From Glycomyces arizonensis DSM 44726 (lineage in GTDB: Bacteria; Actinomycetota; Actinomycetes; Mycobacteriales; Micromonosporaceae): 64,000 bases of DNA. The position numbers were made by a program, and so were the translations under genes. The notes beneath the pieces are model-generated. The model had not been told where the DNA came from. It saw only the letters and a list, made by a program, of their open reading frames with translations, and ran no database searches. The DNA is taken from the NCBI RefSeq assembly GCF_000482705.1, contig NZ_AXWO01000004.1, forward strand, positions 124,001 through 188,000. The letters are read 5' to 3'. Of this stretch, positions 9,908-17,443 are shown piece by piece. Numbering within the stretch: the first letter of the stretch is position 1; every line of letters starts with the position of its first letter.

Positions 9908-12286
<2,379 letters not shown>

Positions 12287-13323: not shown

Positions 13324-13716
13324 ATGGCCGAGACCTTTCCCCCGACGAAGCCGCCGACCGGCGAGGAGCCGGACCGCGCAGCTCAGGACCATGCGACGGC
13401 GAAGCGCGAGCCCGCCGAAGACTGCCGCGAGCCGCTGTGGCGCGACGCGCTCGGCGAATGCCTGCGCAGTCTGCGCCACGAACGCGGCGAGAAGCTGGCC
13501 GACACGGCGAGCCGGGCGGGCATCTCGCCGCAGTACCTCTCCGAGATGGAGCGCGGCGTCAAGGACCCGTCGAGCGAGATGATCGCCGCCGCCTGCGGCG
13601 CGCTGGACGTGACGCTCACGGACCTGGCGATCGCCGTCGCCGAACGCACGCGCGCCTCGCAGATCACCGCCCTCGCCGCGATCGGCGCCAGGGCGGCCTA
13701 CGCGCTGGCGGCGTGA
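13324..13716 (+). CDS. XRE-family regulator, ClgR-like
   Basis: A 130-residue protein with a disordered N-terminus (about 1-38) and one XRE helix-turn-helix (about 45-105): LGECLRSLRHERGEKLADTA then SRAGISPQYLSEMERGVKDP. The YLSE-ERG-K string followed by S-E is characteristic of ClgR/PopR, the activators of clp protease genes in actinobacteria. It is convergent with and 10 bp from the clpP pair, whose upstream region has two sites matching the ClgR pattern. ClgR is itself usually a Clp substrate with a C-terminal Ala-Ala, and this protein ends in ALAA, which fits. Confidence 0.82.
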   Translation: MAETFPPTKPPTGEEPDRAAQDHATAKREPAEDCREPLWRDALGECLRSLRHERGEKLADTASRAGISPQYLSEMERGVKDPSSEMIAAACGALDVTLTDLAIAVAERTRASQITALAAIGARAAYALAA

Positions 13717-13726
13717 CCGCCGCGCC

Positions 13727-14314
13727 TCACCGCTCCTCCATGACGTGGTCGATGAGGCCGTACTCCTTCGCCGCGTCCGCGGTGAAGACGCGGTCGCGGT
13801 CGGTGTCGGCGCGCAGCGTCTCCGGGGTCTGCCCGGTGTGGCGCGAGAGGATGCCCTCGATGTCCGCGCGCACGCGCACGACCTCGTCGGCCTGGAGGAT
13901 GAGGTCCGGGATCGGCCCGCGCCCCTGGGCCGCGGGCTGGTCGAGGACGATGCGCGCGTGCGGCAGCGCGGCCCGCTTGCCGGGCGCGCCCGCCGAGAGG
14001 AGCACGGCCCCGGCCGCGATGGCCTGGCCCACGCACGTGGTCGCCACCGGCGGCTTGATGTAGCGCATCGTGTCGTACACGCCGAGCATCGCGCTCGGGT
14101 CCCCGCCTTCGCAGTTGATGTAGAGCTGGACGTCGCGGTCGGGGTTGTCGGCCTCCAGGTGCAGCAGCTGCGTGATCAGCGCGTTGGCGACGCCCGTGTC
14201 GATGGGCGTGCCGAGGTAGACGATCCGCTCGCTGAGCAGGTGCGAGTAGACGTCCATGACCCGCTCGCCGCGCGGGTGCTGCGTGATGACGTTCGGGATG
14301 GTGTAGGTGCTCAT
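13727..14314 (-). CDS. ClpP-family protein lacking catalytic Ser and His (pseudoprotease)
   Basis: A 195-residue ClpP homologue with full-length fold. The active-site motif normally GQAAS-M-G is here GQAIAAG, so the nucleophile is Ala100. The MHQP histidine is replaced by Asp125 (RIVLDQPAAQG). The third residue, Asp174 in TDRDRVFTADAAKEYGLID, is kept. The ATG overlaps the stop of the active clpP upstream (ATGA at 14314-14311). It probably forms mixed rings or stacked heptamers with its partner, like plant and cyanobacterial ClpR. That role is inferred. Another possibility is an independent structural function. Confidence 0.9.
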   Translation of the reverse strand: MSTYTIPNVITQHPRGERVMDVYSHLLSERIVYLGTPIDTGVANALITQLLHLEADNPDRDVQLYINCEGGDPSAMLGVYDTMRYIKPPVATTCVGQAIAAGAVLLSAGAPGKRAALPHARIVLDQPAAQGRGPIPDLILQADEVVRVRADIEGILSRHTGQTPETLRADTDRDRVFTADAAKEYGLIDHVMEER

Positions 14315-14940
14315 CGCGAGGCTCCTTCGGGAGTGAGGCCGAGGCCGATGTTGCGGCGGGTGTGCGGGGCGATCTCGTCGAAGGAGCTCACCACGGCGTC
14401 GATGAAGCCGTAGTCGAGCGCCTCGCGGGCCGTGTACCAGCGGTCGCGCAGCGAGTCCTCGAAGATCCGCTCGACGCTCTGGCCCGTGTCCTCGGCGATG
14501 ATGCCGAGCACCGTGTCCCTGGTGTGCCGCAGGTCGTCGGCCTGCAGCTCGATGTCGACGGCCGCGCCGCCGATGCCGGCCGAGCCCTGGTGCATCAGCA
14601 CGCGGGCGTGCGGCAGGGCCCGGCGCTTGCCCTTGGTGCCCGCCGACAGCAGGAACTGGCCCGCGCTGCACGCCAGGCCCAGATCCAACGTAGACACATC
14701 ACAGGGGATGATCCGCATGACGTCGCGGATCGCCAGCATCGAGGGCACCGAGCCGCCCGGCGAGTGGATCCACAGTGCGATGTCGGCCGAGGCGTTCTCC
14801 ATGGCGAGGCTCATCAGCTGCGTCGCCAGCAGGGTGCCGTTGTCGTCGTCCAGGACGCCGTCGAGCACGAGGACGCGCTGCTGGTACAGCTCGCGGCGCG
14901 CCCGGTCGTCGAACAGCGGTGGTTTCGAATCTTCGCTCAT
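14311..14940 (-). CDS. clpP: ATP-dependent Clp protease proteolytic subunit ClpP
   Basis: A 209-residue serine protease subunit. The catalytic triad can be read as Ser92 (GLACSAGQFLL), His117 (VLMHQGSAG) and Asp166 (SLRDRWYTAREALDYGFID). The N-terminus is longer and more charged than the mature E. coli form and may be processed. It is the first gene of a two-gene operon with a catalytically dead paralogue. Two CGC-N5-GCG sites lie 44-69 bp upstream. It is likely a second (ClpP3/P4-type) set rather than the essential clpP1P2, because it is not next to tig or clpX here. Confidence 0.92.
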   Translation of the reverse strand: MSEDSKPPLFDDRARRELYQQRVLVLDGVLDDDNGTLLATQLMSLAMENASADIALWIHSPGGSVPSMLAIRDVMRIIPCDVSTLDLGLACSAGQFLLSAGTKGKRRALPHARVLMHQGSAGIGGAAVDIELQADDLRHTRDTVLGIIAEDTGQSVERIFEDSLRDRWYTAREALDYGFIDAVVSSFDEIAPHTRRNIGLGLTPEGASR

Positions 14941-14983
14941 GCCACCACGGTGCGCCCGCGCGCACCGCGCCCGCCACCGAATC

Positions 14984-15009
14984 CGCCCTGAGCGGATCCG
15001 CTCTCAGCG
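14984..15009 (-). promoter_or_regulatory. two ClgR-type boxes upstream of clpP pair
   Basis: CGC-N5-GCG occurs twice, at 14984-14994 and 14999-15009, within a larger dyad that includes the perfect 14-mer GAGCGGATCCGCTC. Read on the clpP strand, both fit the ClgR pattern CGCYNANRGCG: CGCTGAGAGCG and CGCTCAGGGCG. They sit just upstream of the clpP start and near a ClgR-like gene. Confidence 0.6.
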
Positions 15010-15050: not shown

Positions 15051-17282
15051 TCACTCCTCGAATTCGAAATCGAGGTATCGGGTCTCGTCGCCGGTGGTGG
15101 CGTAAAACTGTACGTCGTTCTTCGAGTCGTACACCTCGGCCGGGGGCTCGAAGACGATCTGGAACGCGGTCAGTTCGGCGGGGACCGCGAAGTCCACCGT
15201 GAAGTACCGCGCTATGCCGGCCTCGCCCGGCTGGTCGGAGTCCCGCTGCTCGTCGCGGTGCTCGACGTCCTTCGGGGCGATCGTGCCGGTGTCGGTGTTG
15301 ATCCACAGCTGTTTCGCGGGATCGTAGGGCCAGGTCATCTCGTATGCGGTGACCTCCATCAGATAGGCGAACTCGACGGTGACGAGCGCGAGTTCCGGCG
15401 CGCACAGGTACCCCCGCTCCTCATCGAAGACCGAGCGGGTGGCGACGAAGTCGATGTCGAACCAGCTGCTGCTGGTCCAGTAGTCGTCCTGCGAGGCCAA
15501 CTCCATCTCGAGGTGGAGGTTGTTGGTGCTCTCGCCGAACACGCCGTGGTAGTAGGCCGCGATCTGGTCGGCGATCTCACCGGTGCGAAGGTCGAGGGTC
15601 TGGGTGCGCTCGGCGTCGGTGACGCCGACCGTCGCCGCCGCCTCGTCTTCCGCCACATCGCCGTCCACCACGGCGACGTACGCCGTGTCCCCCTCGGGGA
15701 TGCCGTCGGTCTCCCACTCGCCGCTGCCGAATCCGATCTCGGTCAGGACCGTGTGGGCGCTGTCCTCGGGTAGTTCGAACCGCCGCCCCTCCGCGGGGAA
15801 GTGCGCCACCATGACGCGCTCCGATCCCGAGACGTCGAGCTCCTCCCCGAGCAGCTCAGTGAGGAGGTGGGCCTGGTCGGCGTCGAAGAGGGCGACGCAG
15901 GAGACGTGCAGTTCGAAGTGCGGGCCGCGCAGCACCGCCGGAGCCGACTCCAGCAGTTCGGCGTCTTCGAGGCAGACCTGATCCTCGTCGGCGGTGATCA
16001 CGGCGGAGGACGGCCCCGGCTCGGCGCCGCCTGGCAGCTCGGTGAAAAACCAGATCAGTGCGGCCGCTGCCGCGACGGTGACGGCCACCGCCGAGGACAC
16101 GACCGCCAGGAAGCGCCTCCTGGGCGGGCCCGTGTGGGGAGGGAGGACGCTCGTCGGCTCCTCGGCGGCCACCGTGATCGTGTCGCTTGCGATCTCGTGC
16201 GTGTCGGCGGTCGGGACGCCGGGTGTCGCCGCGCCCTCGGCGACCGCCAGCTCGGGCTGCTCGACGCCGACCGGCGCGATGCCGAGTTCGCTGTGGATCA
16301 TGTTCGCCACCAGCGGCATCCGGGACGCACCGCCCACGAGGAATACGTTGCCGAGACGGTGCCCGTCCGATTCGACCGCGGCCTTGAGCCGCTTGAGCTC
16401 CCGGATCATCGGTTCGAGCAGCGGCCGCGCCAGCGCGTCGAGTTCGGGCCGGGTGAGGTGGAGCCCCGCTTCGACCCCGGGGATCGCGACGGGCGACACC
16501 GCCGTGCGCGAGAGCATCTCCTTGGCCTCTCGCGCTTCGCTCCACAGTGAGCGGCGGTTGCGCCCGTGCTCGGTGGTCTCGGGATGTTCGAGCGCGGTCC
16601 AGGCGTCGTGATGGTCGCTCCCGGCGGTCCGCCGCAGGTGCTCGACGATGGCGGCGTCGATGTCGACGCCGCCCAAGTCGTCCAGGCCGCCCTCGGCCAC
16701 GATGGACAGCCGCTCGCCGTCGCGGGCGAGCACCGCGATGTCGACGGTGCCCGCCCCGACGTCGACCACGGCCAGCGCCTCGTCGGCGTCGACGGGGCGG
16801 TCCAGGACCGCCTGGTAGTAGTGCGCGGCGGCCACCGGTTCGGTCACCACGGTCACCGGCGGGAACCCGGCCTTCGCGGCGGCCGAGGCGAGCACCTCGC
16901 GCCGCCGCGCGCTCCACGTCGACGGGCAGGTCACCACCGTCTCGGGCAGTGCGCCGGTGATCTCGGCGCAGACTGCGGCGACCCGGCGGAGGACCGCGGC
17001 GAACATCGCCTCGACGCTCACTTCCTCGTTGCCGAGCAGGACCGAGCCGTGTCCTATGTGCCGCTTGGGGTGCGGTTCGAACCGGTCGGGTGCGGCCGTG
17101 GACAGCCGCGCGGCGTCGCGGCCGACGACGAGGCCGCCCGCTTCGTCGCGGAACACCCCGACGGGCAGGATCGGCTGCCCGTCGAACAGGAGCGGGCGCG
17201 TCCGCCCGTCGGGCCAGCGCAGCATGGCGACGGTGTGCGAGGTGCCGAGGTCGACGCTGAGGAGGTATGAGGAGGGGGACAT
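15051..17282 (-). CDS. membrane-anchored Hsp70/actin-like ATPase with large extracytoplasmic domain
   Basis: A 743-residue protein. Residues about 1-385 form an Hsp70-type nucleotide-binding domain: phosphate-1 SVDLGTSHTVAML, phosphate-2 VVDVGAGTVDIAVL and adenosine motif VFLVGGASRMPLVANMI. A linker then leads to one membrane segment (about 415-435, RRRFLAVVSSAVAVTVAAAA). About 305 acidic residues follow outside the membrane, with no recognised fold but several aromatic beta-rich stretches. The usual DnaK substrate-binding domain is missing. Similar DnaK-ATPase-plus-TM proteins occur in actinobacteria with varied outer domains, and a signalling or envelope-stress role is speculative. It lies upstream of the clpP operon in the same direction. 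Confidence 0.85.
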   Translation of the reverse strand: MSPSSYLLSVDLGTSHTVAMLRWPDGRTRPLLFDGQPILPVGVFRDEAGGLVVGRDAARLSTAAPDRFEPHPKRHIGHGSVLLGNEEVSVEAMFAAVLRRVAAVCAEITGALPETVVTCPSTWSARRREVLASAAAKAGFPPVTVVTEPVAAAHYYQAVLDRPVDADEALAVVDVGAGTVDIAVLARDGERLSIVAEGGLDDLGGVDIDAAIVEHLRRTAGSDHHDAWTALEHPETTEHGRNRRSLWSEAREAKEMLSRTAVSPVAIPGVEAGLHLTRPELDALARPLLEPMIRELKRLKAAVESDGHRLGNVFLVGGASRMPLVANMIHSELGIAPVGVEQPELAVAEGAATPGVPTADTHEIASDTITVAAEEPTSVLPPHTGPPRRRFLAVVSSAVAVTVAAAAALIWFFTELPGGAEPGPSSAVITADEDQVCLEDAELLESAPAVLRGPHFELHVSCVALFDADQAHLLTELLGEELDVSGSERVMVAHFPAEGRRFELPEDSAHTVLTEIGFGSGEWETDGIPEGDTAYVAVVDGDVAEDEAAATVGVTDAERTQTLDLRTGEIADQIAAYYHGVFGESTNNLHLEMELASQDDYWTSSSWFDIDFVATRSVFDEERGYLCAPELALVTVEFAYLMEVTAYEMTWPYDPAKQLWINTDTGTIAPKDVEHRDEQRDSDQPGEAGIARYFTVDFAVPAELTAFQIVFEPPAEVYDSKNDVQFYATTGDETRYLDFEFEE

Positions 17283-17443
17283 TGCTCGAATATATCGCCG
17301 TTCTATTGGCGCCATGCACTTCCGCGTGCCGGGCTCGGCCGTTCCGGCTGGGAGTGCGGCCGAAAGGATCGCACGCTGTCAGTCTGCCCTGCCTTTGCCA
17401 GGCGATGCGCTGTCATGGGCGCATCGCCCGGCGGTCTCGCGCA

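Follow-up and report, generated by a model that had tools for sequence, protein, structure and literature searches.

The popR-clpP3-clpP4 locus of Glycomyces arizonensis and catalytic triad loss in actinobacterial ClpP4

How might a Clp protease work when one of two ClpP subunits encoded side by side has lost its catalytic residues? The question is raised by two neighbouring genes in a stretch of 64,000 nucleotides from Glycomyces arizonensis DSM 44726 (contig NZ_AXWO01000004.1, positions 124,001 to 188,000; the whole stretch is called the window here). The host belongs to the soil actinobacteria, and its genome (5.05 Mb in 49 contigs) holds four ClpP genes: the clpP3-clpP4 pair of the window and an ordinary clpP1-clpP2 pair on a different contig, near a ClpX gene. 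Its ATPases are a ClpX with a VGF loop, two ClpC-type proteins (LGF and VGF) and a fourth, ClpB-like protein in which no loop of the VGF/LGF type was seen.

The locus and its regulator

Both proteins match the Pfam family CLP_protease (E 3.5e-53 for ClpP3, 2.4e-64 for ClpP4), and at the triad motifs both can be aligned to E. coli ClpP (Ser97/His122/Asp171) with no gap. HMMER alignments to solved ClpP structures give the same register. A sequence-only reading of this locus had found Ser92, His117 and Asp166 in the first gene and Ala100, Asp125 and Asp174 in the second; codons and alignment confirm both sets (Table 1). A complete triad is absent from the window ClpP4, in which both Ser and His are replaced. 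The second gene had also been read as translationally coupled to the first, and coupling is likely in view of their 4-nt overlap. Beyond that reading, we find a changed substrate/oxyanion loop in ClpP4, where SPGGS has become CEGGDP (residues 68-73), and can name the module to which the locus belongs.

Table 1. Features of the clpP3-clpP4 locus and neighbouring genes (window coordinates)
Feature	Position	Strand	Remarks
clpP3-type gene	14311..14940	-	209 aa; start ATG at 14940, stop TGA 14311-14313; triad Ser92/His117/Asp166 intact; N-terminal (R)GER axial-loop motif absent
ClpP3 Ser92 codon AGC	14665-14667	-	
ClpP3 His117 codon CAC	14590-14592	-	
ClpP3 Asp166 codon GAC	14443-14445	-	
clpP4-type gene	13727..14314	-	195 aa; start ATG at 14314, stop TGA 13727-13729; PRGER axial-loop motif and pocket tyrosine present
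ClpP4 Ala100 codon GCG	14015..14017	-	nucleophile position
ClpP4 Asp125 codon GAC	13940..13942	-	catalytic His position
ClpP4 Asp174 codon GAC	13793-13795	-	triad Asp retained
ClpP4 codons 69-73	14096..14110	-	EGGDP replacing PGGS(V); altered substrate/oxyanion loop
clpP3 stop/clpP4 start overlap	14311..14314	-	4 nt (ATGA)
popR/clgR-type HTH regulator gene	13324..13716	+	130 aa; downstream of and convergent with clpP4; C-terminus YALAA, degron-like
PopR-box-like palindrome	14982..14996	-	TCCGCT-CAG-GGCGGA (TCCGCTCAGGGCGGA); 41 nt upstream of clpP3 start
Gene for Hsp70-like protein	15051-17315	-	754 aa; directly upstream of clpP3; Hsp70-like ATPase domain, hydrophobic stretch and further C-terminal part
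Gene for UvrA-like protein	9908-12286	-	792 aa, below the usual UvrA length; double ATP-binding protein, zinc-finger-like cysteines present; possibly a drug-resistance-type UvrA paralogue

The convergent HTH protein has ClgR as its best NCBIfam match, under the cut-off of that model (61.9 vs 170 bits). The box TCCGCTCAGGGCGGA agrees with 9 of the 12 consensus bases of TCTGCC-N3-GGCAGA, reported as the PopR site element of S. lividans (PMC9775585). That same consensus ranked first when the palindromes upstream of clpP3 were counted blindly in relatives, with no motif supplied, and the box signal upstream of clpP3 scores far above shuffles across the family; a scan for sigma-70 promoters and terminators gave no result. 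Among 189 loci, clpP3 and clpP4 are spaced by -4 in 141, and the HTH gene is convergent in 167, with a C-terminal AA in 162. The same three-gene arrangement occurs on a Streptomyces fungicidicus plasmid. Gene order, the convergent AA-ending HTH protein, the PopR-type box and the S. fungicidicus match thus identify the locus as the known actinobacterial popR-clpP3-clpP4 module. With its Streptomyces counterpart it shares gene order, overlap or near-overlap of the two genes, a PopR-type regulator of the kind described, a PopR-type box and a coexisting clpP1P2. However, the Glycomyces box is a TCCGCT/GGCGGA variant, and whereas Streptomyces ClpP4 keeps Ser and has Gly for His, Glycomyces ClpP4 combines Ser to Ala, His to Asp and an altered substrate loop.

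In Streptomyces the module is a backup Clp protease (Viala 2000, as cited in PMC9765437, PMC12607617 and PMC9775585). Expression of clpP3P4 in S. lividans is held off through degradation of PopR by ClpP1P2, and viability requires either clpP1P2 or clpP3P4 (PMC9765437). These findings on regulation come from the work of others on Streptomyces, and we carry them over to Glycomyces by inference. Its PopR-like activator, with a degron-like C-terminal AA, would be kept low by the housekeeping ClpP1P2, and upon failure of ClpP1P2 it would accumulate, bind the box upstream of clpP3 and switch the pair on.

Triad loss in ClpP4 across actinobacteria

We compared 178 distinct operons; since the searches were seeded with the window ClpP4, the proportions that follow are not unbiased population frequencies. 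The ClpP3 triad was intact in every operon, whereas that of ClpP4 was incomplete in 145 and intact in 33, and the reverse case never occurred. Losses in ClpP4 affected Ser in 122 operons, His in 27 and Asp in 23, and the triad states include AHD, GHD, ADD, GDD, SGD, EHN, EHH, WHT, WHD, FHN, SHN, DHD and SDD. A tree built from an alignment of the ClpP proteins of 218 loci, with the catalytic columns masked, fell into two halves, ClpP1/ClpP3 and ClpP2/ClpP4. By parsimony the triad switched between intact and broken at least 11 times, with at least 8 changes for Ser, 5 for His and 6 for Asp, on what is a quick tree with some weakly supported and long branches. The window ClpP4 lies in a mostly Ser-less clade of 65 rows (SH-aLRT 99). 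An EGGD loop is found in 106 of 134 Ser-less ClpP4 proteins vs 6 of 56 Ser-bearing ones. Ser-bearing members do occur inside the Ser-less clade (Kribbella, Janibacter, Aeromicrobium, one Actinomadura, one Nocardia). As they still carry the altered loop, their sequences suggest that Ser was regained rather than retained; loci with a nucleophile Ser and a retained CEGGD loop are L039, L084, L086, L089, L094 and L098.

Other lineages show other states. S. fungicidicus ClpP4 reads GQAAS and VLLGQP, with Ser kept and His replaced by Gly. The Gly at the His position is common to all 15 sampled ClpP4 proteins of one genus (g23) that are close to S. fungicidicus ClpP4, a resemblance from which the genus was inferred to be Streptomyces. 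On the Prescottella equi plasmid p1-WH99 (L220:2501-3100), a ClpP4 from an operon of the same layout, HTH gene included, has Gly at the nucleophile and Gln at the Asp position, so that this plasmid-borne copy took another route of inactivation. In ten genomes of a further genus (g38; L141, L156, L157, L164 and relatives) the nucleophile is Glu and the Asp has become Asn or His.

Within the window's clade the His to Asp change is confined to 11 of 19 Glycomyces, the other 8 keeping His (8 AHD, 7 ADD, 4 GDD). Ser loss in ClpP4 is old and widespread, and His to Asp is younger. The sequence-only reading had proposed a catalytically dead subunit, and our comparison supports both this and its conservation in that state. 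The reading merged two histories, however: a large clade has lost Ser throughout or almost throughout, whereas His to Asp is limited, within that clade, to part of Glycomyces. It also held that intact triads in close relatives would speak against a dead subunit; instead, the window's residues recur in a relative with 95% identity and in further Glycomyces. With these shared residues, and with Ser-less ClpP4 found widely in the class, neither a sequencing error nor a recent one-off mutation can account for them. The pair was not found, at the threshold used, in 3 of 22 Glycomyces genomes (G017, G018, G021); two of these retain clpP1-clpP2, and one (3.3 Mb, 92% complete) has no ClpP at that threshold.

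The open-access literature that we searched makes no mention of triad loss in ClpP4, nor of such loss as a general and repeated feature; the ClpP3P4 system itself is known.

A proposed division of labour between ClpP3 and ClpP4

The features for docking ATPases and for the axial entrance are divided between the two proteins. The axial-loop motif is present in 174 of 178 ClpP4 vs 3 of 178 ClpP3, the pocket aromatic Tyr/Phe62 in 178 vs 45 and Tyr/Phe82 in 148 vs 14, and a charged residue at position 112 in none vs 87; pocket position 60 is polar in many ClpP4 proteins. Among 30 P1-like proteins the axial-loop motif occurs in only one and the pocket is kept in 28. ClpP1 thus already lacks the motif, which makes the axial-loop part of the split older than ClpP3, and it still has the pocket, so that pocket erosion is a step specific to ClpP3. 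This erosion is concentrated among the partners of Ser-less ClpP4: the pocket of ClpP3 is kept in 11 of these 122 and, in the other groups, in 19 of 33 and 21 of 23. The last of these is the Streptomyces-type group, whose ClpP3 retains most pocket aromatics, so that the docking half of the split does not hold everywhere. A strong raw association (64/5/12/21) links Ser loss in ClpP4 to pocket loss in ClpP3, but it reduces to at most five independent supported pairs. The predicted fold of ClpP4 is that of an ordinary ClpP (pLDDT 83; Z around 28 and rmsd 1.7 over nearly the full length against ClpP structures), and that of ClpP3 resembles, among other ClpPs, M. tuberculosis ClpP1 (pLDDT 75, Z around 24). 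Sequence comparison favours ClpP4 as the docking side.

We consider it probable that the pair builds an obligate core, with ClpP3 as the cutting subunit and ClpP4 serving for docking or gating. The two proteins would most likely co-assemble into a single mixed tetradecamer in which all peptide-bond cleavage comes from ClpP3. ClpP4, a putative pseudo-protease in the window's clade, would provide the axial gate and the surface to which ClpX/ClpC dock with their xGF loops. By analogy with ClpP1P2, which in Mycobacterium consists of two homo-heptameric rings, two such rings would be favoured over mixed ones. That ClpP3 is the source of cleavage is likely: S. lividans can depend on clpP3P4 in place of clpP1P2 (PMC9765437), and a Streptomyces ClpP4 is without the catalytic His, which should leave cleavage there to ClpP3. 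The 33 operons with an intact ClpP4 triad, some of them inside the Ser-less clade, imply that catalysis may persist or return in some.

Possibly active and dead subunits alternate instead within mixed ClpP3/ClpP4 rings, as in cyanobacterial ClpP3/ClpR, the dead ones spacing or slowing the active sites. The loss of catalysis is the same as in ClpR, and each ring of Synechococcus ClpP3/R alternates three ClpP3 with four ClpR (PMC4673316). However, the nearest characterised relatives, Streptomyces ClpP1P2, have two homo-heptameric rings (PMC11005422), and since docking and axial features are divided between ClpP3 and ClpP4, one docking ring fits better; we regard mixed rings as unlikely. Still less probable is that ClpP4 acts on the housekeeping core, associating with ClpP1 or ClpP2 so as to block or redirect it, with ClpP3 acting separately. 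A precedent exists in ClpP-ADEP of S. hawaiiensis, which breaks up oligomers of ClpP1 and also forms a pair with ClpP2 (PMC12607617), and the host genome does contain clpP1P2, but the 4-nt overlap ties clpP3 to clpP4 in most operons and, at least in Streptomyces, clpP3P4 is expressed mainly upon failure of ClpP1P2 (PMC9765437).

That ClpP4 is decaying under relaxed selection is very improbable. Catalytic residues were lost by many routes and median omega in Glycomyces is slightly higher for ClpP4 than for ClpP3 (0.30 vs 0.24; simple NG86 estimates from a GC-rich genome, hence approximate), but both values lie far below 1 and indicate purifying selection, the frames are full-length without stops, identity is 73-95% across families and many structural residues are invariant. 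A pseudogene is ruled out by omega and conservation. Catalysis by another route, with water or another residue in place of Ser/His, could draw on the retention of Asp171 in 87% of ClpP4 but is scarcely credible with nucleophile replacements that include Ala, Gly, Trp and Phe, and with an altered substrate loop.

ClpP4 compared with other Clp cores

The sequence-only reading had likened ClpP4 to ClpR, and as a mode of working the comparison is sound: like the ClpR of cyanobacteria, plastids and apicoplasts, ClpP4 has the ClpP fold without a working triad (Ala100 and Asp125 in the window) and an active ClpP as partner. Unlike ClpR, ClpP4 sits in a two-gene operon under a PopR-type regulator, often keeps Asp and, outside Glycomyces and Streptomyces, usually keeps His. 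Membership in the cyanobacterial and plastid ClpR lineage is not supported by sequence, as ClpP4 falls beside actinobacterial ClpP2 and other ClpP4 in a tree without ClpR sequences, and its best score is with the general model PRK00277 (it scores under every NCBIfam ClpP cut-off). A cyanobacterial ClpR with its catalytic site restored did not make the core faster (PMC4673316), so that inactive subunits can be harmless or even of benefit. In Streptomyces and Mycobacterium, ClpP1P2 is likewise a paralogue pair with split labour; in Streptomyces cutting falls to the ClpP1 type and ATPase docking to the ClpP2 type, only ClpP1 being needed for catalysis in S. hawaiiensis (PMC9765437, PMC11005422). 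However, both of its subunits have full triads, whereas the split in ClpP3P4 can be read from the sequences themselves. The S. hawaiiensis protein ClpP-ADEP is also an additional ClpP paralogue that alters the Clp system, but unlike ClpP4 it is ClpP1-like and lies near the ADEP biosynthesis cluster.

In conclusion, we lean towards the view that the actinobacterial ClpP4 lineage evolved ClpR-like pseudo-protease subunits on its own, several times, which would have given an obligate two-part protease with a cutter that has partly lost its ATPase-docking face and a docker that has lost cutting. Of the Clp cores in Streptomyces and its relatives, ClpP3P4 is the less well understood. If ClpP4 is a dead docking subunit, the activity, drug response and partner choice of ClpP3P4 would become predictable and testable subunit by subunit. 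The ClpR principle would then have evolved repeatedly, and the diverse inactivating substitutions would be natural variants that may help to ask why Clp cores tolerate or even prefer dead subunits.
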